Shown: one piece after another, positions 5,573 to 20,843 of the stretch | Layout of the letters: the number at the start of each line of letters is the position of its first letter | Position numbering within the stretch: position 1 is the stretch's first letter | From: Desulfovulcanus ferrireducens | GTDB lineage: Bacteria; Desulfobacterota; Desulfovibrionia; Desulfovibrionales; Desulfonatronovibrionaceae | Length of the DNA: 64,000 nucleotides | Assembly (NCBI RefSeq): GCF_018704065.1 | Contig: NZ_JAGUQP010000001.1 | Coordinates: 179,368 to 243,367 of the forward strand | Direction: 5' to 3' | Notes under the pieces: generated by a model | What the model saw: the letters and a program-made list of their open reading frames with translations, nothing else | What the model was told of the DNA's origin: nothing | Databases searched by the model: none | Made by a program: the position numbers and the translations under genes

Positions 5573-5593
5573 AAGGGGGCCTAAGGCCCCCTT
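5573..5593 (-). terminator. hairpin terminator after the yeiH operon
   Basis: A perfect 9-bp GC-rich stem (AAGGGGGCC/GGCCCCCTT) with a 3-nt loop. It is followed on the minus strand by TTT and an AT-rich tract. It lies 18 bp past the stop of the 58-aa protein and separates that transcription unit from the Usp operon. Confidence 0.75.
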
Positions 5594-5611: not shown

Positions 5612-5788
5612 TTAAGCCAGCCACTTGGTAAAAAGTAGAACAAAAAAGACAACGATCATGACCAGAACCAAGGCGGTCAGGTCTTCGTTGCGTTCGCTGG
5701 CAAACACAGACAGCGCACGCTCTTCCATTACTTTCTGGTCGTCTGCTCCAGGAACACCACATTTGTTTTCACAGTTATTTTCGGCCAT
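5612..5788 (-). CDS. 58-aa membrane protein, cotranscribed with YeiH-type transporter
   Basis: This is a small gene below usual ORF cut-offs. Its start is supported by a strong AAGGAGAT Shine-Dalgarno, and it lies 14 bp downstream of the transporter stop. The 58-aa product begins MAENNCENKC, with two cysteines at 6 and 10. A charged segment (DDQKVMEERALSVFASERNED) follows. It ends in one transmembrane helix (about 38-55) and TKWLA. It is followed directly by a hairpin terminator. Likely an accessory subunit of the transporter; I do not recognise the family and the function is inferred from context only. Confidence 0.8.
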   Translation of the reverse strand: MAENNCENKCGVPGADDQKVMEERALSVFASERNEDLTALVLVMIVVFFVLLFTKWLA

Positions 5789-5802
5789 ATTTTATCTCCT
5801 TT

Positions 5803-7443
5803 TTACTTTAAGACAACATCCTTTACAAAGAACATGACCACGATAAAGGACAGTACTGCCTTGGCGGTACCGGAAATGGCACCCATGACCAGTGGCCATC
5901 CACCAGCTTGCGCCAGGGCTTTCTTGGTAATTTGCATGCCCAGACCAATAAGACCGTAGGCAAAGAACCAAATCATGGCATCAGTAAGAACAACAATGGT
6001 CTTGGATTTTTTATGTACCTGTTTTACCGCGTGTTTAATAGCACTTTTTAGCTCTTTGGAGATTGAGATTTGTTTAGCCTTGGCCTTTGCTAAGATTGAT
6101 TGCAAGGCTTCCATTCTCTTGCGGGCTTTGGCATCAAATACTTTTTTATTGTTCCTGTCTTTGTAGTCACCAGCAATTTGTCTCTGTTTGTAAAGATCTT
6201 CCAGTGCTTCCTTTTCTGCCGCAGTTAGTCCTGGAACGCCTGCTTTTACAGCTTCACCAATGACAGCCAATTCTTCTGCTGTGACCTCAGTTCTCTTATT
6301 ATAGCTGAAATCCAGGTATTTACCCTTATAGTGGCTTGGAGGGCTGAATAAACCTAAAGAGGAGAGGAAGAATAAGAGCAAGAAACCAAGTACGAAGATA
6401 GGGAACTTATCAATGACAACTTCTTTAAAAGAAAGCTTGGTGCCTTCGCTTTTACCATACCAGGTGGCCAGTACCAAAACAATAATGGGCAAGAACAAAA
6501 CGCGTGTAATGTTGAAAATTTCACCCACTTTCAAGGTGTGAATATCAACAGCATTAAAAGCCAAGCAAGCAGCAGCTACCTGGGCGGAGTTCAGGATACC
6601 TGTTCCGGCCCAAGCACCGAACTGGGTGGGGTTCATACCCACGATCTTACCAATGGTTGGGAAAGCAAACATACAAAGGACACCCCAACCAAGAATAGTA
6701 CCTATTGTATAGGCCATCTCTGAACACTTGGCCCGGACAACAGGAGCACAGGCTACAGTTGCGGAAACACCACATACGCCCATACCCGCAGAAAGAACTC
6801 CAGTCATAGACTTAGGCTGACGGAAAATGTGTCCAAGCCAGAGAACAAAGAAAACAGTGCCCAATACAAAAAAACCGATCATCCAGACGGAAACCATACC
6901 CAGCTTGGCCAATTCAGCGAAAGAATAACGGGCACCCAAGAGGATAACACCCATCTTCAGAACGAACCGGGCTGTTTTAACGCCTGAGGCCGCAAAGTTG
7001 GGAATTCCCCAAGTGTTAGTGATAATAATACCGACCAGGATACCCAATACAACATAGTTCAGGTTGAGTACCTTGTGGATCTTGAAGCCAATAACCGGAA
7101 CCAGGTTGTTACTGATAATTTTAACAACTGGCTCTGCGTACCAGCGAATAGCCATGGCCAGAATCAAGATAAAAAGTATGCCTGGAATTGTTTCCAGGAC
7201 AAAGGTATCAAAATTTGTCATTGGCTTATCTTTTCTGGCCTGACGCAGTACGGCAGCAGCAACACCCAAAACACCGCCGACGATGCTTAAAATAAATTGC
7301 AGATCAGCACTTTTATGAGTGTGCAGGCTGTGCATGATCCCATCGAGAACGCCGGCTTTGACCAAAAACGCATAGCCCAGCATAATGATACTGATGATCC
7401 ACAAAGGACCATTGCTGGGACGACCAACTTGACCGTTTGCCAT
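5803..7443 (-). CDS. YeiH/UPF0324-family membrane transporter (putative sulfate/sulfur-oxyanion exporter)
   Basis: A 546-aa polytopic inner-membrane protein with roughly 11 hydrophobic helices. Family landmarks visible include LKMGVILLGARYS, the glycine-rich GMGVCGVSATVAC loop, and AWAGTGILNSAQVAAA. Annotation pipelines often call this family a putative sulfate exporter; the substrate is not proven. A lysine-rich soluble insertion (about 385-490) separates the last helices, and a GQVGRPSNGP leader precedes helix 1. A GGGAGG Shine-Dalgarno and a consensus sigma-54 promoter lie upstream. The gene is divergent from a two-component system of the sigma-54 activator class. Confidence 0.85.
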   Translation of the reverse strand: MANGQVGRPSNGPLWIISIIMLGYAFLVKAGVLDGIMHSLHTHKSADLQFILSIVGGVLGVAAAVLRQARKDKPMTNFDTFVLETIPGILFILILAMAIRWYAEPVVKIISNNLVPVIGFKIHKVLNLNYVVLGILVGIIITNTWGIPNFAASGVKTARFVLKMGVILLGARYSFAELAKLGMVSVWMIGFFVLGTVFFVLWLGHIFRQPKSMTGVLSAGMGVCGVSATVACAPVVRAKCSEMAYTIGTILGWGVLCMFAFPTIGKIVGMNPTQFGAWAGTGILNSAQVAAACLAFNAVDIHTLKVGEIFNITRVLFLPIIVLVLATWYGKSEGTKLSFKEVVIDKFPIFVLGFLLLFFLSSLGLFSPPSHYKGKYLDFSYNKRTEVTAEELAVIGEAVKAGVPGLTAAEKEALEDLYKQRQIAGDYKDRNNKKVFDAKARKRMEALQSILAKAKAKQISISKELKSAIKHAVKQVHKKSKTIVVLTDAMIWFFAYGLIGLGMQITKKALAQAGGWPLVMGAISGTAKAVLSFIVVMFFVKDVVLK

Positions 7444-7480
7444 AAAAAACCTCCCGTTATAATTTTTTTTCTTTTACATC

Positions 7481-7496
7481 AGCAAAACACGTGCCA
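7481..7496 (-). promoter_or_regulatory. sigma-54 promoter of the yeiH operon
   Basis: Read on the minus strand: TGGCACG-TGTT-TTGCT, which matches the RpoN consensus TGGCACG-N4-TTGCW at every defined position. The start would fall about 25 bp before the transporter ATG. The adjacent gene pair encodes a histidine kinase and a regulator with the sigma-54-contacting GAFTGA loop, which supports this promoter as its target. Confidence 0.88.
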
Positions 7497-7709
7497 CGTT
7501 CTTTGTTTTTCTAATGTGTTGAAATTATTAATTTTAATTTTTTGATTCCGTGTTGAGTGTAAACTTGAGTTAGCAGGATGTATGTTCGAGGTTGCAAAAT
7601 TTTGTTTTTTGTATCAGCTAGAGAGTTTGGGTTTGGGGGGAGGTTATTACGAAACTTGATTTACACGGTTGATTTTCGTTTCCCTATCTTAACTATTTTT
7701 AATAAATAC

Positions 7710-7723
7710 CAAGTTTGAGCTTG
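7710..7723. promoter_or_regulatory. candidate upstream activator site CAAG-N6-CTTG
   Basis: An imperfect palindrome (CAAGTTTGAGCTTG) about 215 bp upstream of the sigma-54 -12/-24 element, at typical enhancer distance for NtrC-class activators. Its first 13 bases recur at 5537-5549. The AAACTTG half-motif also occurs at 7561 and 7652. The binding role is inferred. Confidence 0.4.
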
Positions 7724-7751
7724 CTTATAGGTATTGTTTACGCTCATTTTC

Positions 7752-7768
7752 CCGGACATTCTGTCCGG
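7752..7768. promoter_or_regulatory. perfect palindrome, possible operator or terminator stem
   Basis: CCGGACA-TTC-TGTCCGG, a 7-bp perfect inverted repeat with a 3-nt centre, lies 118 bp ahead of the kinase start. It has no T-run after it on either strand, so an operator is more likely than a terminator. Alternative: leader hairpin of the kinase mRNA. Confidence 0.4.
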
Positions 7769-7886
7769 TTCCGAGGTATTTCTCCTCACTGAACAACATC
7801 GCTATAAGAAAATATAACATAAAATGACAGGGATTGAAACAAAAGCAACCAAAAAATTTGAGTTTTGAATTTTATATGGAGGAAAG

Positions 7887-10265
7887 ATGACTTTTTTTAA
7901 GTCTAAAAAGATACAGACCAAGTTTATATGCGGATTGACCTTAATCATGTTGAGCGTTGGGTTTTTTTTAGCTGCTACTCTTTATTTTCACTTAAAAAGC
8001 TTGCTAACATCCGAGGTTCAGCAAAAGGCACATCTTGTATTTGCCCAGGTTGATGCTGTCCAAAACTATGTTCGCCGTACACTCAGACCCCTGATGTATG
8101 AACTTTTGCCTAACAAGTTTTTACTTCAGGCCATGTCTACATCTTATGTTTCCCGCCAGATTATGGAGAACATGAATTTAATTAATGAGGATTTTTATTA
8201 TCGCCGAGTGGCCATTAATGCCAGGAATCCAAAATTTGAGGCCAACACCATTGAACTTGAGTTAATTAATCATTTTCGGAATAGTTCTGAAAGTGATTGG
8301 GAGGGATACAAAAAGATTAATGGAAATGAGTATTATTTAATGGCCAGACCGGTCAGGTTTGAAGAGAGCTGCATGCGCTGCCATGGTCATCCCCTGGATG
8401 CTCCAAAGGAGATATTAAATATTTATGGTTCCAAAAGAGGTTTTGGACATAAAGTCGGGGAACTTGCTGGGCTGGATGCTGTTGGAATTCCTGTTCAATC
8501 AGCTGTAACGCATATTCGTGAGGCCTCTGTTTCATACGCGTTGATGGTCTTTGCCGGTGGCATTTTTTTCTTTGCCGTAGTCAATGTCTTGTTTAATCGT
8601 CTGGTTGTACATAACTTACGAAGAATACTTGATATTTTTAAAACCTATTTTGACTATGATTACAAGCAAAAGAAACTAATAGAAAATATTGAAGTGGACG
8701 ATGAAATTGATGAAATTATTTATGCTACTGAGGATTTAGCCCAGCATTTGAGAAAGGCCAGAAAAGAATTACAAAACTATGCTCAGAACCTGGAAAGGAT
8801 GGTCAAGGAGCGGACCAAGGAATTGGCCCAGGAAGCTGAGGAAAGAAGGTTAGATGTAAATTTATTTGTCGAGCTTTTGTCGAGGTTGAATGTAAGCTTG
8901 AGTAGGGCGGATTTACTTTCTGCTTCCATGGAACTTATAGGCAAGCGTTTCCAGGTGGACCAGGTAACCTATATTTGTTCAATCGCCAGCCATTTTTTCT
9001 ATTCCTGGCCAGAAAAGGATAAGCCTCCCAGGCTACCCAAGAATTGGGAAATGCTGGTGGCTCAGAACCAGCCTGTGTTCGCTGAGGATCATTGTTATAT
9101 CCCTGTTCTATCCGGTGAGGCAGCCTGGGGGCTTTTGTGTCTTTTTTGGAACCAACCGGTGCGGATTTCAAGACAGATGCAGTCAGTACTCCTGGCCCTG
9201 GGTCAGCAATTGGCTATTGCTATTGAGAACCTCCAGGCACTTGATGAACTGCTTAAACAAAAAACCATGCTGCAATCAATTTTTGAAGGGATTTCTGATC
9301 CTCTGTTGCTCCTTGATGGTAACGGTTCGATAATAATGAAAAATTCTGCGGCAGATAAAGTCGTTCACCTTTTTGAAGTCTCTCATAAGAAGCCATCGTT
9401 GAAAACTATTGTTCTTGAACAGGCTGCTTTACTTAAAGAACAAGGGAGGGACCATGATCTTCCCTTAAGTAAAGAGTTAACAGTTGATTCTAGAATTTTT
9501 GTATTTAATTTTTATCCTTTAAAAGGTGCTGATAGAATTGTGCTGTATGTGCGCGATGTTACCAAGGAAAAAAATATGCTCGTTAAGATGCAGCAATCAG
9601 AAAAGATGATTGCCGTGGGTAGACTAGCTGCAGGATTGGCCCATGAGATTAATAACCCTCTGGGAGTAATTTTATGCTATGCTCAAATATTGAGAGGCAG
9701 CCTTGAAGATGAGCAGCAGATTAAAGATCTGAGCGTGATTATTAAACATACTAAAATGGCCCAGAAAGTTTTACAGGATTTACTTAACTTTGCCAGGCCC
9801 AAACAAGCGAAAAATACCGAGATTGACCTGGAAGAAGTGATTTCAGGGTTAATATCTGTGTTTAAAGTGCAGGCTGATATGCGCAAGGTGGAGTTCACCG
9901 CGCATATAGTTAAACCTTTACCTTTAATTGTCGCTGATAGAACAGCCCTCGAACAGGTTTTAACCAATTTGTTTTTAAACAGTTTGGATGCTGTTCCGTC
10001 AGGCACCGGGCGAATTGAGCTCAGGGTTGATATTGATAAAGAAAGTAATCGCATTGTGCTCAGTGTAAGGGATAACGGGCCAGGCATTGAGCTAGAGGAA
10101 AAGGCAAAGATCTTTGATCCCTTTTATACGACAAAAGAGCCAGGCAAGGGAACAGGACTTGGACTGGCTGTTGTTTATACCCTGGTTGAGGAAATGGGTG
10201 GAGAAATCAGGGTTAGAAATGACAATGGAGCTGTTTTTGAAGTGCTGTTTAATTGTGTTTGTTAA
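7887..10265 (+). CDS. membrane sensor histidine kinase with CxxCH (heme) sensory domain
   Basis: A 792-aa sensor. TM1 (about 14-37) and TM2 (about 217-237) flank a periplasmic domain of the Tll0287/DUF3365 type. That domain holds a c-type heme motif, C162-M-R-C165-H166, followed by GHP. A HAMP-like and coiled-coil linker, a GAF-like domain (about 325-450) and a PAS-like domain (about 457-560) follow. HisKA has phospho-acceptor H586 (AAGLAHEINNP), and the HATPase carries DNGPG and GTGLGL. A GGAGGAAAG ribosome site precedes the ATG. It is followed 80 bp later by the NtrC-class regulator and should phosphorylate it. A redox or gas ligand at the heme is likely but inferred. Confidence 0.88.
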   Translation: MTFFKSKKIQTKFICGLTLIMLSVGFFLAATLYFHLKSLLTSEVQQKAHLVFAQVDAVQNYVRRTLRPLMYELLPNKFLLQAMSTSYVSRQIMENMNLINEDFYYRRVAINARNPKFEANTIELELINHFRNSSESDWEGYKKINGNEYYLMARPVRFEESCMRCHGHPLDAPKEILNIYGSKRGFGHKVGELAGLDAVGIPVQSAVTHIREASVSYALMVFAGGIFFFAVVNVLFNRLVVHNLRRILDIFKTYFDYDYKQKKLIENIEVDDEIDEIIYATEDLAQHLRKARKELQNYAQNLERMVKERTKELAQEAEERRLDVNLFVELLSRLNVSLSRADLLSASMELIGKRFQVDQVTYICSIASHFFYSWPEKDKPPRLPKNWEMLVAQNQPVFAEDHCYIPVLSGEAAWGLLCLFWNQPVRISRQMQSVLLALGQQLAIAIENLQALDELLKQKTMLQSIFEGISDPLLLLDGNGSIIMKNSAADKVVHLFEVSHKKPSLKTIVLEQAALLKEQGRDHDLPLSKELTVDSRIFVFNFYPLKGADRIVLYVRDVTKEKNMLVKMQQSEKMIAVGRLAAGLAHEINNPLGVILCYAQILRGSLEDEQQIKDLSVIIKHTKMAQKVLQDLLNFARPKQAKNTEIDLEEVISGLISVFKVQADMRKVEFTAHIVKPLPLIVADRTALEQVLTNLFLNSLDAVPSGTGRIELRVDIDKESNRIVLSVRDNGPGIELEEKAKIFDPFYTTKEPGKGTGLGLAVVYTLVEEMGGEIRVRNDNGAVFEVLFNCVC

Positions 10266-10345
10266 GTTTATTGGATAGGGACAAGTGGCTAAGTCGTCCT
10301 TGGGTCAACTTTAACCGATCGCGGAATAATTAATCTTGGAGCGTC

Positions 10346-11734
10346 ATGGAAAAAAAGTTTGGTGTTTTAATCGTTGATGATCAAGAAGATTTTGCACACG
10401 GTCTGTGTAGGTTGATTGGAAGCCAGTACCCTGATCTGGTTTGTTTTGCTGTAAGATCAGGAGATGAGGCATTGGATATTCTGGAGAGAGAGTCTATTGC
10501 CCTGATGATAACAGACCTACGCATGCCGGAAATGGATGGATTACAGCTTCTGGACAGAACTCTGGAGATTGAACCGACTGTCAGTGTGGTCTTACTCACA
10601 GGATACGGCAGCGTGGAGACTGCTGTACAGGCTTTGAAGGCAGGTGCTTATGATTTTTTGACCAAACCCATTGATCAAGATCTGCTGTTTCGGGTTGTGG
10701 AAAAGGGGGTGGAGCGTAGCAGGCTGCTCAGGGAGAATTTTCGTCTGAAATCTCTGGCTGGAGAATGTGAACTGGACCAGGTCATAATAGGTCAGAGTAA
10801 AAGTGTTCAGAGGTTAAAGGAAACAATCTGTGCTGTAGCAGGATCTGACTATACAGTACTTATTCTGGGTGAATCCGGTGTAGGTAAGGAATTAGTGGCC
10901 AAAATGGTACATAAATTGAGTCCACGGGCCAATAAGCCACTTGTTAGTGTCAACTGTCCTGCTATCCCTAGTGAACTCTTGGAAAGTGAGCTCTTTGGTC
11001 ATGTTAAAGGTGCATTTACCGGCGCAAACAGAAACAGGAAAGGGCTGTTTCTGGCAGCCAATGGGGGAAGTATCCTTCTTGATGAAATTGGGGATATTTC
11101 ACCACAAATCCAGACCAAATTATTGCGGGTCTTGCAGGATCAGGAAATCAGGCCAGTAGGTTCGTCTACAGCCCACAAGGTGAATGTACGTATTCTGGCC
11201 TCTACCAATCAGGATTTGGAAAGCAAGATAAAAGATAATAGTTTTCGCGAGGACTTGTATTATCGTTTGAATGTATTGACTATTGAGGTACCTCCTTTGC
11301 GAGAGAGAAAAGAAGACATTCCTCTTCTGGCCCAGCACTTTGTTTTAAAAACATGCCAGGAGTTAAATATTCCGCCCAAAGAGATCAGTCCGGAAGTTAT
11401 GGCCTGGCTCAGTATCCAGGAATGGCCCGGGAATATTCGCGAACTGATCAACTTTGTCAGACGTCTGGTTGTCTTTTCAAGCAGGGATACCATTGATATG
11501 CCGGTTTTGTCCCTGGTAACTAAAGGAAACGGGGAAAAATCCATAGAATTGAAACCCTATAAACAGGCCAAGGCCGAGGTTATAGATAATTTTACGCGCA
11601 ATTATGTCACAGTGCTCATGCGCAAGACAAAAGGCAATATCTCTGAGGCAGCAAGAATGAGTGGATTGGAAAGGGTTTCCTTACAAAAAATTTTAAAGAG
11701 ACTAAATATTAATGCCCAGGAGTTTAAACAGTGA
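10346..11734 (+). CDS. sigma-54-dependent response regulator, NtrC class
   Basis: A 462-aa activator with three domains. The receiver has phospho-acceptor D57 (TDLRMPEMDG). The AAA+ domain has Walker A GESGVGKE (about 175-182), the sigma-54 contact loop GAFTGA (222-227) and a GSILLDEIGD Walker B. A C-terminal Fis-type helix-turn-helix ends the protein (NISEAARMSGL, about 430-445). It is paired with the upstream heme-motif kinase. The only consensus RpoN promoter seen in the window is in front of the divergent yeiH operon, so that operon is the most likely target. Confidence 0.92.
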   Translation: MEKKFGVLIVDDQEDFAHGLCRLIGSQYPDLVCFAVRSGDEALDILERESIALMITDLRMPEMDGLQLLDRTLEIEPTVSVVLLTGYGSVETAVQALKAGAYDFLTKPIDQDLLFRVVEKGVERSRLLRENFRLKSLAGECELDQVIIGQSKSVQRLKETICAVAGSDYTVLILGESGVGKELVAKMVHKLSPRANKPLVSVNCPAIPSELLESELFGHVKGAFTGANRNRKGLFLAANGGSILLDEIGDISPQIQTKLLRVLQDQEIRPVGSSTAHKVNVRILASTNQDLESKIKDNSFREDLYYRLNVLTIEVPPLRERKEDIPLLAQHFVLKTCQELNIPPKEISPEVMAWLSIQEWPGNIRELINFVRRLVVFSSRDTIDMPVLSLVTKGNGEKSIELKPYKQAKAEVIDNFTRNYVTVLMRKTKGNISEAARMSGLERVSLQKILKRLNINAQEFKQ

Positions 11735-11853
11735 TTTTCTTGCTGATCTCCTTGGTTGGGTTTGGGTTACTAGAGGCTAAGAAAGCCTTCTGTTTTGGGG
11801 GAAATCATGATTAGTAAAGTTGATTCTGAAGTGCAGACAAGGAGTGTCTTGTA

Positions 11854-12336
11854 ATGGTTGAAGAAAGCAGGGTATTGCTTTTGGCTGAACTTTTAGTCCG
11901 TAAAAAGTGGACTCTGTCCACGGCTGAATCTTGTACAGGTGGACTCTTGGGTCACACCCTGACCAATATCCCTGGTAGCTCAAACTGGTATGTCGGCGGG
12001 GTTATTACTTATGCCAATGAAATGAAGATTTCTCTTTTAAATGTAGAAGCCGAGGTTATTGAAAAATATGGCGCTGTAAGTGAAGCCTGTGTGCTCCAGA
12101 TGGTGCGTGGAGTATGCAACCTAGCCAACTCTCAGGTAGGGGTAGCCATTTCAGGCATTGCCGGGCCAGGCGGAGGAACAGAAGATAAACCAGTAGGTAC
12201 AGTGTTTATGGCCTGGCAGGTAGGAAATAGACATTGGGCGAAAAGGTTTAACTTTTCCGGAGACAGGCAGGAGGTTAAGTTACAAAGTGTGCAACAGGCC
12301 ATTGAAGGGTTGGTAAGTGGGTTGATGTGTAAGTAA
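11854..12336 (+). CDS. pncC: nicotinamide-nucleotide amidase (CinA C-terminal family)
   Basis: A 160-aa stand-alone CinA-C domain that deamidates NMN to nicotinate mononucleotide in pyridine nucleotide recycling. Family motifs are intact: STAESCTGGLLG, VGGVITYANEMK, and GIAGPGGGTEDKPVGTV. It is the usual length for the single-domain form. An AAGGAG site lies 9 bp before the ATG. The next gene starts within 16 bp. The 119 bp upstream hold only a short hydrophobic 27-codon frame overlapping the regulator stop, which I do not call. Confidence 0.88.
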   Translation: MVEESRVLLLAELLVRKKWTLSTAESCTGGLLGHTLTNIPGSSNWYVGGVITYANEMKISLLNVEAEVIEKYGAVSEACVLQMVRGVCNLANSQVGVAISGIAGPGGGTEDKPVGTVFMAWQVGNRHWAKRFNFSGDRQEVKLQSVQQAIEGLVSGLMCK

Positions 12337-12351
12337 GTGAGAGAGGGGAAA

Positions 12352-12903
12352 ATGCGTTTGTTTATTGGTATTTCGGTACCCGAAGCATATCAACAAAAGC
12401 TGCAGGAAGTTCAGGACAAGTGGAAAAACCGTTTTAAATCCAGACTATCCTGGACCAAGAAAGGCAATTGGCATTTGACGTTGAAGTTTTTAGGAGAGGT
12501 AGAAGAGGCAGACCTGCAGGGGATAAAGAATGCCCTTGATAAGATTCATCTTCGTTCGGCCTGGTTAAAGGGTGGGCAAGCAGGATATTTTGCCAGTAGA
12601 AATGGAATTCGAGTGCTTTGGCTGGGGCTTTCAGGTGAAGTAGGTGTGCTTGAAGACTGGGCCAGAGAAATTGAAGAAGAGTTTTATGCTCTAGGTTTTA
12701 GTAAAGAGAACAGGCCGTTTCATCCTCATTTGACCATCGCCCGCGTGAAAAGGTTTTCGGATCATGATCCCTGGACCGAGTTTAGGGAATATGTTTCCGG
12801 ACTTGAGTGGCCTGACTTCAAGGTACAGAGGATAAATTTGTGGCAGAGCAAGTTAACTCCCAATGGGCCTGTGTATAAACTGGTCTATTCGATTAAAGGT
12901 TAA
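12352..12903 (+). CDS. thpR: RNA 2',3'-cyclic phosphodiesterase (2H family)
   Basis: A 183-aa 2H phosphoesterase that opens 2',3'-cyclic phosphates on RNA. Both catalytic tetrapeptides are present: HLTL in NWHLTLKFLGEV (about residue 38) and HLTI in HPHLTIARVKR (about 127). I use the ATG preceded by GAGAGGGG. An in-frame GTG 15 bases upstream abuts the pncC stop and is less likely. Probably co-transcribed with pncC. Confidence 0.88.
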   Translation: MRLFIGISVPEAYQQKLQEVQDKWKNRFKSRLSWTKKGNWHLTLKFLGEVEEADLQGIKNALDKIHLRSAWLKGGQAGYFASRNGIRVLWLGLSGEVGVLEDWAREIEEEFYALGFSKENRPFHPHLTIARVKRFSDHDPWTEFREYVSGLEWPDFKVQRINLWQSKLTPNGPVYKLVYSIKG

Positions 12904-12938
12904 GCCCGTGCCCCAGATTCTAGCCTCTTAACCTTTAA
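12892..12938. terminator. bidirectional hairpin between thpR and a convergent gene
   Basis: TTAAAGGTTAAG near the thpR stop pairs with CTTAACCTTTAA about 25 bp later, between convergent genes. It can serve either strand. The loop is long and T-tracts are short, so its strength is uncertain. Confidence 0.55.
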
Positions 12939-12939
12939 A

Positions 12940-13401
12940 TTAAATATAGTCACCACGGTTGAACTTGATTTCTTCCGTGGTCGTCATAATTTCCAGCTCT
13001 TCTAGAATAGATCTAAGTTCAGGTTTTTGGGAAGTTAGATTGATATTTTCTTTTAACTCATTAATTTGCCCGGATATTTCCTGTAAAGTGGCATAGAGCC
13101 CGCGTAGGTCAGCCTGGGGGTTCTCCAACCCGGCGGCATAATTTTCCCATTTGCTTAAAAGTTGATCAACCTGTTCCATAAGACTAGTTTCCACGGGTTG
13201 ATGGTTTAACAGGGCTGGCGAGAGTATGGGGTTTATTGATGGAGCTGAGATACCCGTCGAGCCAGAGACCCCACTGGAAGATACAGGTTTGGCACTTAAT
13301 TCCTGGTTTAAGATTTTTGAGAAATCGTCCGCGGTCTTACTTTTTTGAGTTTTATTTTGTTCACTAATTAGTTTAGCAACTTGTTCCGGATTTATTTTCA
13401 T
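12940..13401 (-). CDS. hypothetical protein, C-terminal coiled-coil character
   Basis: An unrecognised 153-aa soluble protein. Residues 1-35 are polar and helix-forming (MKINPEQVAKLISEQNK). Residues 38-70 are a Ser/Pro/Gly-rich low-complexity linker. Residues 72-145 are heptad-like helix (EQVDQLLSKWENYAAGLE, LQEISGQINELKENI). There is no signal peptide or membrane segment. It stands alone on the minus strand, convergent with thpR. The architecture resembles flagellar or secretion accessory proteins, but no motif proves that. Confidence 0.65.
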   Translation of the reverse strand: MKINPEQVAKLISEQNKTQKSKTADDFSKILNQELSAKPVSSSGVSGSTGISAPSINPILSPALLNHQPVETSLMEQVDQLLSKWENYAAGLENPQADLRGLYATLQEISGQINELKENINLTSQKPELRSILEELEIMTTTEEIKFNRGDYI

Positions 13402-13656
13402 GGCTATCCCCTTTGGAAAATTTTTCCCTTTTGGGTTGGTTAAAATCGATAAAGCAATAATTTTGCCAAGTGTACTTTTTTAGCAGGTCTGAGTCAAATT
13501 AAGCTTTAACAAATATCTAAGGGTTAAAGCTAAGCCGACTTTATAGGTTCTAATCATGAATTGCGTCTGCAAGGAATCCATAAAATGGATAACGTAATCC
13601 ATACTACTCAATAAAACATAAAACAACAAACTCAAAAAACTCATAAAAGGGACTCA

Positions 13657-14283
13657 ATGAACCTGATAAAGGATGCCATAAACACAGCCATAGATATTAT
13701 TCGGCAGGGTGGGATAATTGTTTATCCTACCGAGACTTTTTTGGGCCTGGGAGGAAATGGCCTTGAGCTGAGCGTGGTACAACGAATCCAGGCGCTCAAG
13801 AAACGGCCGGCGCATAAGCCCCTACCTTTGATCATAGGCGGCCTGGGACAATTGGAGGAAATATGTTATTTGACCCCGTTTAGTTTGGAGCTGGCCAGAG
13901 ATTTTTGGCCGGGCCCATTGTCCATTCTATTTCGGGCCAAAGAAATAATCCCTTTTGGAGTCAAAGATGCCGCCGGAATGGTCTCAGTTCGTTTGACCCC
14001 TCATCCGGTGGCCAGGCAACTTTGCACTTTTTCCGGATATCCTCTTATTGCTACTAGTGCCAACTTAAGCGGAAAACCACCCTGTACCTTGTGTAGTGAT
14101 TTGGATCCTGAAGTCCTCGAAAAAGTCGACTTCGTTTTGGATGTGCCTCCGGAGCCAACCGGTGAACTACCGTCCACTCTGGTTCGCATGTTGGGAGGAA
14201 AAGAAATCGAAATCTTGCGACATGGTGTTATAAGCGAAGGAGAGTTGAGTCAAAAAGGGTATAAAGTAGTGCGTAAGGCATAA
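13657..14283 (+). CDS. tsaC: L-threonylcarbamoyladenylate synthase (YrdC/Sua5 family)
   Basis: A 208-aa YrdC-fold enzyme that makes threonylcarbamoyl-AMP for t6A37 in ANN-decoding tRNAs. Conserved elements are GGIIVYPTETFLGLGGNG, KKRPAHKPLPLII, WPGPLSILF, and ATSANLSGKPP. It lacks the extra Sua5 C-terminal domain. The usual YPTET-YGLGC reads YPTETFLGLGG. The stop codon is immediately followed by the left end of a family A repeat element. Confidence 0.9.
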   Translation: MNLIKDAINTAIDIIRQGGIIVYPTETFLGLGGNGLELSVVQRIQALKKRPAHKPLPLIIGGLGQLEEICYLTPFSLELARDFWPGPLSILFRAKEIIPFGVKDAAGMVSVRLTPHPVARQLCTFSGYPLIATSANLSGKPPCTLCSDLDPEVLEKVDFVLDVPPEPTGELPSTLVRMLGGKEIEILRHGVISEGELSQKGYKVVRKA

Positions 14284-14757
14284 GCGGCTGTGGCCGAACC
14301 TTTTTATCAACTTAATTTCCATGGTTTATTCCAGTCTTGGTTCCTTTCATGCTGGTACAAAGCCTTGGACCCTTCTAGCACTTGCTTGCGGACAGAGCGT
14401 AATGGGATATTTTGAGTAAGCGAATAGTCTTTTAATTATACCTAAGTTGAGCGATTTTCACTCAATGGGTAGAGATTGCCACGGACAGCTTCGCTGCCCT
14501 CGCAATGACAATCTCGCCCCTGTCATTGCGAGTGGAACAAAGTGTAGCGAAGCAATCTCAAAGTTTGAACTGCAAAATAATCGCTCAATTTAAACTATAG
14601 ATAGTTATCGTAGGGCTCGCAAGATATTTATCTTTGTCGCCCCGATGCTCTGTTTTTCCGCAAGCTTCGTTGAGATTGGGTTACCCAAGTCGTTTGTAAT
14701 GCATTTCAGAAACCAGGACTTTCAATCAGCGCTAACAGGGTTTGGCCACGGGCTCAT
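14284..14757 (-). repeat. family A foldback repeat, interrupted copy
   Basis: This copy runs in the opposite orientation to the one at 46.6 kb. It shares blocks such as CATGGTTTATTCCAGT, CATGCTGGTACAAAG, GCGGACAGAGC, ATGCTCTGTTTT-CCGCAAGCTTCGTT and GTTTGGCCAC. It begins directly after the tsaC stop. Positions about 14441-14597 are a separate inserted element. Confidence 0.88.
14441..14597 (+). repeat. family B MITE-like element inserted in family A copy
   Basis: The element runs between CCTAAGTTGAGCGATTTT at its left end and AATCGCTCAATTTAAAC at its right. It contains palindromic GCTGCCCTCGCAATGAC and CATTGCGAG...GCAATCTCA blocks. A TA dinucleotide flanks both sides (14439-14440 and about 14598-14599). 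The uninterrupted family A copy at 46.6 kb shows the joined site. Boundaries are accurate to about 4 nt. Confidence 0.8.
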
Positions 14758-14998
14758 AGGGTGCATCATGGGGGTTCAAAAAATTTAACCGTTTCTTTGG
14801 TAGTGATTGTGAGGTTACCGCTTGAGTTTATTAACAAATCTACTTTAATCTACATTTAAGATTAAATTTTTGGTTTAAATTTTTGAACCAGTGTTGGGGC
14901 CGGATTGATTTGGTAACTTATTGAAAAATAAAGAAAAGAATAAGTTTTGTGTGTTGGCCCTGTTTTTGCTTGTAGATTGATATCTTCCTCCTTTTACC

Positions 14999-15045
14999 AA
15001 AGCCGGCTTTCTCTTTCTTTTTTTGGATATGGGAAAGCCGGCTTT
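14999..15045 (-). terminator. double palindrome, likely terminator for GT9 gene
   Basis: Two copies of the self-complementary 12-mer AAAGCCGGCTTT (14999-15010 and 15034-15045) flank a TTTCTTTTTTT tract, just past the stop of the minus-strand glycosyltransferase. They can pair with each other over 12 bp. The arrangement fits termination but lacks a classic T-run on the minus strand. Confidence 0.5.
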
Positions 15046-15057
15046 ATATTTGTGTAT

Positions 15058-16035
15058 TTATGTTTTCTGGAAAGGTGCAGCAGCTAATCTTTCCAAGTTT
15101 TCAACATCCCTCTCTCCCAATTTTCCTAGTATCTTCCTTGCTGTTGCTAGAACGCTCCGGACTTTTATTTCCGCCATGCATTCAGGTGCGGGGCAAGATA
15201 TCTTGCCTAAATCTGAGCAGGGGGCACATCCTTTAGGGCTGGTTAAGATGTGCATGCCTTGCGGTGCCCACTGTTTGGGCGAGGTAGGGCCGAATAGGGA
15301 TATGCCCGGAATGCCCATGTACCCGGCTAGATGCAAGGGGCCGGAGTCATTGCCAATAACCATTTTGGCCCGGGCCAAAATGTCGAGCAATTGGTTGAAG
15401 TCTTGTGGGGTGACAACAGGAAAATCATTGATTGTCAATTTTCTTTCAACTTCCACAGGTCCGAGCACAAACCGTATGTTTTCTTTATCTTTTTGCAGGT
15501 TTTTTGCTAACATAAAAAAGCTATGCAGAGGCCAGTTTTTAGCAGGATGCCCTGAGCCGGGAAAAATAATAATGCTCTCTGGTTTTAGCGTGGGTAAATA
15601 CAGATTTTGCCAGGCAAAAAGCCAGTTGTCATCCCAGATAAGTCCTAATGATTTTAATTTCCGGGCATAAACTTCGCGGACATGATTTTTACGGTTTAAG
15701 TCAATGCCTGTTAAAAAAATAAGGTTGGGATGAATTATTTTTATGATTCTTTGTTTTAGGCCAAACCAGAAAATCAGAGTATCTTTAAAGGTATCTGGCC
15801 ACGAGGGGGCCGAGTAAAGACTTTGGACTGCTTTCCTGGTCATAGGGTCAGCCCTATTTATGCCCATCTTTTCTATCCAGGGGAGGTAAATCTCCCGGCC
15901 CGCCCAAAAGACTTTTGTTCGGCTAAAGTTTTGCTTTATATTCCAGATAGTTGGCCAGGCCAGTAAAAAATCACCTAAAGCCCCATTGTGGACAATAATT
16001 ATCTTGCAAGCTTGGTTTATTTCATTTAAAAACAT
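15058..16035 (-). CDS. glycosyltransferase family 9 (heptosyltransferase-like)
   Basis: A 325-aa GT-B fold protein of the ADP-heptose:LPS heptosyltransferase family. It is expected to add a heptose or related sugar to lipopolysaccharide core on the cytoplasmic face. Visible features are an N-terminal IIIVHNGALGDFLLAWP loop, the mid-protein PGSGHPAKNWP segment and the donor-binding MVIGNDSGPLHLAGYMGIPGISLFGPT. A late CAPCSDLGKISCPAPECM stretch has four cysteines, common in this family. It stands alone on the minus strand; acceptor and donor are not determined. Confidence 0.85.
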   Translation of the reverse strand: MFLNEINQACKIIIVHNGALGDFLLAWPTIWNIKQNFSRTKVFWAGREIYLPWIEKMGINRADPMTRKAVQSLYSAPSWPDTFKDTLIFWFGLKQRIIKIIHPNLIFLTGIDLNRKNHVREVYARKLKSLGLIWDDNWLFAWQNLYLPTLKPESIIIFPGSGHPAKNWPLHSFFMLAKNLQKDKENIRFVLGPVEVERKLTINDFPVVTPQDFNQLLDILARAKMVIGNDSGPLHLAGYMGIPGISLFGPTSPKQWAPQGMHILTSPKGCAPCSDLGKISCPAPECMAEIKVRSVLATARKILGKLGERDVENLERLAAAPFQKT

Positions 16036-16064
16036 AATTTAATCTAAGAGTGTTAAACAGTTAA

Positions 16065-16091
16065 CGGCCATGAAAAGGCCGGGACTTTTTT
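16065..16091 (+). terminator. rho-independent-type hairpin upstream of Nudix gene
   Basis: CGGCC-ATGAAAA-GGCCG, then GGAC and TTTTTT. It reads on the plus strand, between the divergent GT9 and Nudix genes. It would stop antisense transcription across GT9, or act as an attenuator in the Nudix leader. Confidence 0.55.
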
Positions 16092-16173
16092 GTCGACCTC
16101 ACACTTGAAAAGGTTTCTGAAAATAGTTTAAGCGCTTTTGTCCGTTTTTAATTTTCGACCATTTTAACAAAAT

Positions 16174-16629
16174 ATGTCTTACTCTATATCCTGTCCTAAA
16201 TGTGGACAATCTATTCTTCATTATCGCAATCCGATTCCTACTGTTGATATTATTATTTTTTCTCCCCCCAAGCAGGTTGTCCTGATTGAGCGCAGGAACC
16301 CACCCCTTGGGTGGGCCTTACCAGGTGGATTTGTCGATTATGGAGAGTCTGTGGAGCAAGCTGCTCTGCGCGAGGCAAAGGAAGAGACCAACCTGGATGT
16401 AGTTTTAACAGGCCTTCTAGGTGTTTACTCTCATCCTCAGCGTGATCCCCGTTTTCATACCTTAAGTATTGTCTTTATGGCCAGTGCACAGGACTTAACT
16501 AGACTGAAAGCCAGTGATGATGCAAGACTAGCCAGATTGTTTTCCCTGGACGCGTTGCCTGAACTTGCTTTTGACCACGGTCAGATACTCAGGGATTTTG
16601 TAGCCTATCTTGAACGGTTCAAGGCTTAA
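16174..16629 (+). CDS. Nudix hydrolase
   Basis: A 151-aa Nudix-fold pyrophosphohydrolase. A short N-terminal zinc-ribbon-like start (CPKCGQ) precedes the fold. The Nudix box is complete: [10 protein letters not shown], then REAKEETNL, matching GX5EX7REUXEEXGU except for the last Gly. The substrate is unknown; ADP-ribose or nucleotide sugars are common for this subgroup. It is followed 11 bp later by the ROK kinase. No good ribosome-binding site is visible before the ATG. Confidence 0.88.
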
Positions 16630-20552: not shown

Positions 20553-20843
20553 ATGGCCGAACAAGAACTTGTCCTGACTATTGATGGAGATATTGTTTCT
20601 ACTAGTTCGGAGGAATTAAAGGAAAAATTACATAAGGCCGTTGGTGAGGATCCCAAAATACTAGTTTTAGATTTTAAAAATGTAGAATATGTAGATTCTA
20701 TTGGTATTGGCATAATTATTGCTACACATAATAGCTTGAGAAATAAAGGTGCCAAACTGAAGCTTATCAATGTTAATAATGATATTTTAAATCTTTTTAA
20801 GACAATGCGTCTTGATAAGCATATTGATATGGAAGAAGCGTGA
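20553..20843 (+). CDS. STAS-domain anti-sigma-factor antagonist (SpoIIAA/RsbV-like)
   Basis: A 96-aa single STAS domain. The phospho-acceptor serine sits in VEYVDSIGIGIII (about residue 50), matching the SpoIIAA DSSG-type loop. The fold strands VLDFKNV and LKLINVN surround it. A CTGGAGGG ribosome site precedes the start. Genes for its expected partners, a SpoIIE-type phosphatase and an RsbW-like kinase, lie 4-6 kb downstream in the same cluster. It should switch between phosphorylated and free forms to bind the kinase. Confidence 0.88.
   Translation: MAEQELVLTIDGDIVSTSSEELKEKLHKAVGEDPKILVLDFKNVEYVDSIGIGIIIATHNSLRNKGAKLKLINVNNDILNLFKTMRLDKHIDMEEA

Follow-up and report, generated by a model that had tools for sequence, protein, structure and literature searches.

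The window, i.e. the whole 64,000-nucleotide (64-kb) stretch of Desulfovulcanus ferrireducens DNA that was analysed, carries a gene for a PF03601 (PSE) family transporter on the minus strand, followed by a gene for a 58-aa membrane protein and five further genes. A sensor histidine kinase and an NtrC-type response regulator are encoded divergently on the plus strand. Coordinates of all features are given in Table 1. A BLAST survey of relatives covered 25 loci from Desulfovibrionales and 41 from elsewhere (Desulfobulbales, Desulfobacterales, a few MAGs); counts are given among eligible loci.

Table 1. Genes and regulatory features of the transporter locus, in window coordinates.
Feature	Position	Strand	Remarks
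Calcineurin-like metallophosphoesterase, 256 aa	1810..2580	-	PF00149/PF12850; overlaps Ser/Thr kinase gene; 1/24 Desulfovibrionales, 17/21 other eligible loci
Hanks-type Ser/Thr protein kinase, 440 aa	2571..3893	-	PF00069, 111.8 bits; 17/24 Desulfovibrionales, 23/27 other eligible loci
P105, two-helix membrane protein, 105 aa	4178..4495	-	C-terminal SQPGF; 24/24 Desulfovibrionales, 0/31 other eligible loci
P194, 194 aa	4505..5089	-	C-terminal membrane anchor; no Pfam family; conserved in 24/24 Desulfovibrionales, 31/32 other eligible loci
Universal stress protein (Usp), 150 aa	5065..5517	-	PF00582; conserved in 25/25 Desulfovibrionales, 34/35 other eligible loci
Single-helix membrane protein, 58 aa	5612..5788	-	Conserved EERALSVFxSERNEDxTALxLxLIxTFxVLLFTKW
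PF03601 (PSE) transporter, 546 aa	5803..7443	-	Charged insert of ~110 aa (~residues 369-482), followed by the final two predicted helices
RpoN (sigma-54) promoter, TGGCAC-GTGTT-TTGCT	7481..7496	-	Sole perfect match in window; kept in 25/26 Desulfovibrionales loci
IHF-like site, TTTCAACACATTA	7512..7524	-	1 mismatch to WATCARNNNNTTR; 15 bp upstream of the -24 element
Activator site (UAS), TGCTAAC-TCAA-GTTTACA	7558..7575	-	Predicted target of the NtrC-type regulator; 61 bp from the RpoN site
Sensor histidine kinase, 792 aa	7887..10265	+	Helix, periplasmic Tll0287/sCache_heme domain, helix, HisKA, HATPase_c
CMRCH c-type heme attachment motif (kinase residues 162-166)	8370..8384	+	Between two predicted membrane helices
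NtrC-type response regulator, 462 aa	10346..11734	+	GAFTGA; HTH GNISEAARMSGLERVSLQKILKR

The transporter scored 155.7 bits against PF03601 (cut-off 24.5), and 86.9 bits against the NCBIfam model TIGR00698 (YeiH), which is below the cut-off of 232.6. The original prediction of a YeiH-type transporter therefore stood at the level of the PSE superfamily, but not as an assignment to the curated YeiH equivalog. The protein was unusually conserved, with 74-84% identity across Desulfovibrionales and 61-70% elsewhere. No relative was found in the PDB by sequence. In the structure model (mean pLDDT 63.8) only the helical insert (residues ~389-476) was confident and all PDB matches had E > 0.01; the model was set aside as a basis for mechanism because of the low pLDDT and the lack of a significant match. 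The 58-aa protein was conserved in 25/25 Desulfovibrionales and 39/39 other eligible loci and is probably a subunit of the transporter. In the region 6262-16221 of locus L013 (contig C24 of the same genome), a second PSE gene is accompanied by a Usp gene and flanked by two other NtrC-type two-component systems without heme domain.

A pattern scan of the window for TGGCACN5TTGCW returned TGGCACGTGTTTTGCT upstream of the transporter as the only perfect match. With up to one mismatch, 7 sites were found against 2.6 expected. An RpoN site with at most two mismatches was located 53-81 nt upstream of the transporter ATG in 25/26 Desulfovibrionales loci, compared with a background rate of 4.5% in random 450-nt windows from the same loci. 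The exception was Desulfonauticus, which keeps a perfect palindrome next to a diverged promoter. Transcription of the operon is expected to start near 7470. Of the features of an enhancer-dependent sigma-54 promoter, GG-N10-GC, upstream activator site, GAFTGA activator and rpoN in the genome were present. The IHF-like site, which lies between activator site and RpoN site, was found at 14-17 bp from the -24 element in many relatives, or at 5 bp where the spacer is one turn shorter. With at most one mismatch it occurred in 12/26 spacers (mean 2.6 and maximum 7 in 300 shuffles); the site is degenerate, and about half of the spacers were without such a match. Many Desulfobulbales loci have a degenerate palindrome ~95 bp from an RpoN-like site, both lying some 380 nt ahead of the gene; in L042, L056 and L061, for example, the position of the RpoN-like site leaves a long leader upstream of the transporter. 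Elsewhere in the window, two near-consensus RpoN sites with one mismatch each, 20708-20723(+) and 20739-20754(-), lie on opposite strands less than 50 bp apart and may serve a divergent gene pair.

Footprinting by alignment of upstream regions gave the palindromic consensus TGYWAAC-N4-GTTWRCA. With at most one mismatch it was present in 24/26 Desulfovibrionales promoters of the PSE operon (window counted in), a count that is partly circular because the pattern was derived from these promoters; the genome-wide tests and those on other PSE types are independent. The distance between palindrome and RpoN site was 52 bp in four Desulfovibrionales loci and 60-65 bp in the remaining 21, and spacings of 73 and 82-84 bp were also seen with other PSE types. 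Since these spacings are stepped by about one helical turn, they fit an activator that needs a given face of the DNA.

Within the host genome (2.59 Mb) the palindrome had two exact matches. Both were followed by an RpoN-like site within 40-110 bp, each at exactly 61 bp, while none of the one-mismatch palindromes of this genome had an RpoN-like site in that range. The only two activator-plus-RpoN pairs of the genome thus precede the PSE operon and a split-Soret cytochrome c gene (ssc). The latter (locus L122, contig C7) has its activator site at 8670-8687 and its coding region at 8912-9625; the 237-aa product matched split-Soret cytochrome c of PDB entry 1H21 at 8.5e-39. In five genomes of another genus (g35) ssc was also preceded by exact palindromes. 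When 247 genomes of the class were scanned for a stricter version of the palindrome, 32 had it, compared with 4 for the reversed control, and most of these palindromes adjoin a PSE gene (including quite different types of 26-45% identity) and/or a CxxCH kinase. The predicted palindrome regulon is small and dedicated. Matches resembling ssc in G002, G005, G008, G014 and G037 contain a single in-frame TGA and are possibly selenocysteine versions of the C_GCAxxG_C_C domain.

The regulator consists of receiver, sigma-54 AAA and Fis-type HTH domains. Its HTH motif GNxSEAARxSGLxRVxLQKI was common to the regulators of these loci and absent from two other NtrC regulators of the genome. Synteny in relatives had been suggested as a check of the original prediction, and a divergent kinase adjoined the transporter operon in 23/25 Desulfovibrionales and 27/36 other loci. 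Adjacency alone never proves regulation, and in Desulfonauticus the pair stands at the far end of the operon, so that kinase and regulator might be neighbours without functional link, with a different activator driving the transporter. The unique activator site of fixed geometry beside the pair, the shared HTH and the fact that the pair is retained next to PSE genes of different types make this very improbable, and coincidental adjacency was rejected on the activator-site and synteny evidence. The RpoN promoter, the divergent membrane kinase with c-type heme motif and the GAFTGA activator were all borne out, and their connection with a PF03601 transporter into one circuit is supported by synteny and by the dedicated predicted activator site. 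In G004 (L190:7637-14314, corresponding to window 5803-12903) the neighbourhood of kinase, regulator, CinA and ThpR is kept beside a quite different PSE type (27% identity); this looks like an exchange of the transporter gene at a single chromosomal position.

The operon had been thought to comprise two genes, for the transporter and the one-helix 58-aa protein. Both are present, but by the gene order of relatives the operon very probably runs past 5612 to 1810, and seven genes, from 7443 down to 1810, probably belong to it. In the Desulfonauticus relative G007 (locus L009) one run contains transporter, 58-aa type protein, Usp, P194, P105, Ser/Thr kinase, phosphoesterase, kinase and regulator. 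In G019 the kinase pair is divergent, with the operon downstream. The 58-aa gene and the Usp gene, second and third in the operon, are separated by 94 nt, with a hairpin at 5573-5593; both features would fit an operon that stops after the 58-aa gene, with the downstream genes under their own promoter. This is unlikely, as gene order is kept across orders and the T-rich tail of the hairpin is on the plus strand, opposite to the operon, so that termination at this site is not the simplest reading; the hairpin could cause partial attenuation. The Ser/Thr kinase and phosphoesterase, together with the charged insert of the transporter, suggest control by phosphorylation. Usp, Ser/Thr kinase and phosphoesterase are additions to the original prediction, as are the activator site, the second target gene and the precedent in D. 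vulgaris described below.

The sensor region of the histidine kinase matched PF11845 (Tll0287) at 138.6 bits; no HAMP domain was detected by Pfam in this protein. CxxCH was present in 55/55 kinases examined, and in none of them, the window's included, was there another Cys in the 125 residues preceding it. The model of the sensor domain (pLDDT 84.5) had Tll0287 (5B82) as best PDB match (E 1.5e-8) and showed a Cache fold with a strand at 147-157, the CxxCH-bearing helix at 160-166 and a strand at 193-202. Stand-alone sCache_heme domains possess a Cys ligand and behave as redox proteins, whereas tight binding of NO, with no stable O2 complex, is described for a signalling member that lacks this Cys; a slow-releasing Fe(II)-NO complex is characteristic of the signalling cluster (PMC12889525). 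The window kinase shares with these sCache_heme (DUF3365/Tll0287) receptors PF11845 and CxxCH, and with the signalling type the absence of an axial Cys. As the Cys ligand is missing in all 55 kinases, binding of NO or another small ligand at an open heme site would be expected by analogy (PMC12889525), and our best guess is that such a ligand is the leading signal candidate, with a redox switch as main rival. NO as a proven signal was dropped, since the one NO transcriptome showed ssc falling: NO given to D. desulfuricans 27774 lowered ssc (PMC5701242), which calls for caution against simple activation by NO, although that ssc gene may lack the palindrome. In the rival reading the circuit is the same, but the heme reports the potential of the periplasmic cytochrome pool, including the co-regulated split-Soret cytochrome c, and the transporter answers respiratory imbalance. 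The ssc decrease points in this direction, as do the split-Soret cytochrome c gene being the sole other activator-site target of the genome and the link drawn by Rajeev 2011 between lactate-oxidation genes and the counterpart in D. vulgaris (PMC3333781). The absence from all 55 kinases of the Cys ligand of redox-type domains argues against it, and we regard the redox switch as a real, if tentative, possibility.

For the transported substrate, the nearest evidence comes from Salmonella, where sulfite resistance depends mainly on YeiH (PMC12880088). The host had been described as a putative sulfate- or sulfite-metabolising anaerobe, and its genome does contain a dissimilatory sulfite reductase gene (dsrA) as well as rpoN. 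From the YeiH phenotype and this reductase, sulfite export when sulfite reductase is blocked is the most economical hypothesis; molybdate, sulfate and other anions are also possible. Reading the protein as a sulfite exporter may over-read family names, and it may carry another anion (molybdate, sulfate, thiosulfate, an organic acid) or act in import. PMC4641369 states that the substrates of Desulfovibrio and D. vulgaris PSE proteins are unknown, a molybdate response is on record for D. vulgaris DVU0539-0545 (PMC10102598), and the weak fold matches of the low-confidence transporter model, none of them significant, include citrate and bile-acid carriers. As the one tested family relative confers sulfite resistance (PMC12880088) and the system is found in sulfate reducers and related Desulfobulbales, this alternative is possible but rather doubtful. 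The original prediction had also proposed sulfite- or redox-gating. Both are hypotheses, to which the closest data are NO binding by a single related domain (PMC12889525), YeiH-dependent sulfite resistance (PMC12880088) and the D. vulgaris molybdate phenotype (PMC10102598).

Two known systems were compared with the locus. In D. vulgaris, DVU0540:0539 and DVU0542-0545 (genes for Usp, PSE, a one-helix protein of 133 aa and Usp) run divergently, and activation in E. coli and a molybdate phenotype have been shown (PMC3333781, PMC10102598). DVU0943-0946 and DVU2133-2132 form a related set (Rajeev 2011 PMC3333781; Kazakov 2015 PMC4641369; Trotter 2023 PMC10102598). The paralogous regulator DVU0946 shares the DVU0539 motif, which in two relatives (G20 and Miyazaki orthologs) precedes a split-Soret cytochrome gene (PMC3333781). 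As judged by these published descriptions, the locus resembles the DVU0539/DVU0946 type in the kinase and GAFTGA regulator beside a sigma-54 operon with PSE transporter, Usp and small one-helix protein, in having a palindromic activator motif, and in the occurrence of such a motif before ssc. It differs in the leading position of the transporter gene, in the large insert of the transporter and in the genes downstream, which add further membrane proteins, a Ser/Thr kinase and a phosphoesterase. A divergent dedicated regulator is likewise paired with a PF03601 transporter in the YeiE-YeiH system of Salmonella and E. coli (PMC12880088). In contrast to the window system, YeiE is LysR-type and binds sulfite directly, with no heme kinase, and the window transporter stays under the TIGR00698 cut-off. 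The locus appears as a richer, conserved version of the D. vulgaris circuit, with the same logic, a much larger operon, a defined heme sensor class and a defined promoter geometry. New are the long operon across three orders, of which no description was found in the openly accessible literature, the promoter architecture, the consistent absence of the heme Cys ligand and the heme-Cache/Ser-Thr-kinase fusion that ends the Desulfobulbales operon.

Taken as a whole, we consider it rather probable that the locus is a sigma-54 two-component switch in which the heme kinase acts through the regulator on a seven-gene operon led by a sulfite or oxyanion exporter. The wiring is computationally well supported by domain content, promoter parts, conservation and co-targeting; from these and the cited systems we infer a redox or NO-type heme signal, sulfite-type export as substrate and direction, and the roles of the partners. 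A stressor in the periplasm, at best guess NO or another oxidising or nitrosative signal, would change ligation or redox state of the c-type heme in the Cache domain, whereupon the kinase would phosphorylate the regulator. The regulator would bind the palindrome, and bending of the DNA at the IHF-like site would bring it into contact with RNA polymerase-sigma54 at the promoter. The output would be the seven-gene operon and the split-Soret cytochrome c. The transporter would most likely export sulfite or a related oxyanion and thus protect the cell when sulfite reduction is blocked, with the 58-aa protein as probable subunit and its activity adjusted post-translationally by Ser/Thr kinase, phosphoesterase and Usp. 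Activation of the DVU0542 promoter by DVU0539 in E. coli (PMC3333781) counts for this circuit. Against it count the absence of distinctive energy-related fitness genes in D. alaskensis G20 with sulfite as acceptor (PMC4215793), the clearest D. vulgaris phenotype being with molybdate, where some operon genes are detrimental (PMC10102598), and the sub-cut-off YeiH score and the hairpin at 5573-5593. PSE transporters in sulfate reducers are widespread, sigma-54-controlled and of unknown substrate. The locus offers a promoter, an activator site, a sensor and a set of accessory genes that are all defined and conserved across three orders, so that signal and substrate become directly testable. It also links this switch to split-Soret cytochrome c, a structure whose role is unclear.

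In 19/19 scanned Desulfobulbales-type loci the last operon gene encodes PF11845 fused to a protein kinase domain, i.e. a second heme-Cache receptor in the same operon. In L042:16868-18571 and 18 similar genes (L044, L045, L046, L054 and others) the fusion joins a Tll0287 heme-Cache domain on one side of the membrane to a Hanks-type Ser/Thr kinase on the other. This output is unmentioned in the text of PMC12889525 (2026) and extends heme-Cache receptors to Ser/Thr kinases. A speculative and quite improbable generalisation is that in Desulfobacterota a single periplasmic heme-Cache signal governs both the synthesis of the sulfur-oxyanion transporter, by way of kinase, regulator and sigma-54, and its activity, by way of a Ser/Thr kinase; this would be a heme-gated, phosphorylation-controlled sulfite valve protecting respiration when sulfite reduction is poisoned. 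Two metagenome bins of unrelated taxa carry this Desulfobacterota-type operon, L043 under the label Bacteroides sp. and L079 under Anderseniella sp.; they are probably mis-binned contigs.
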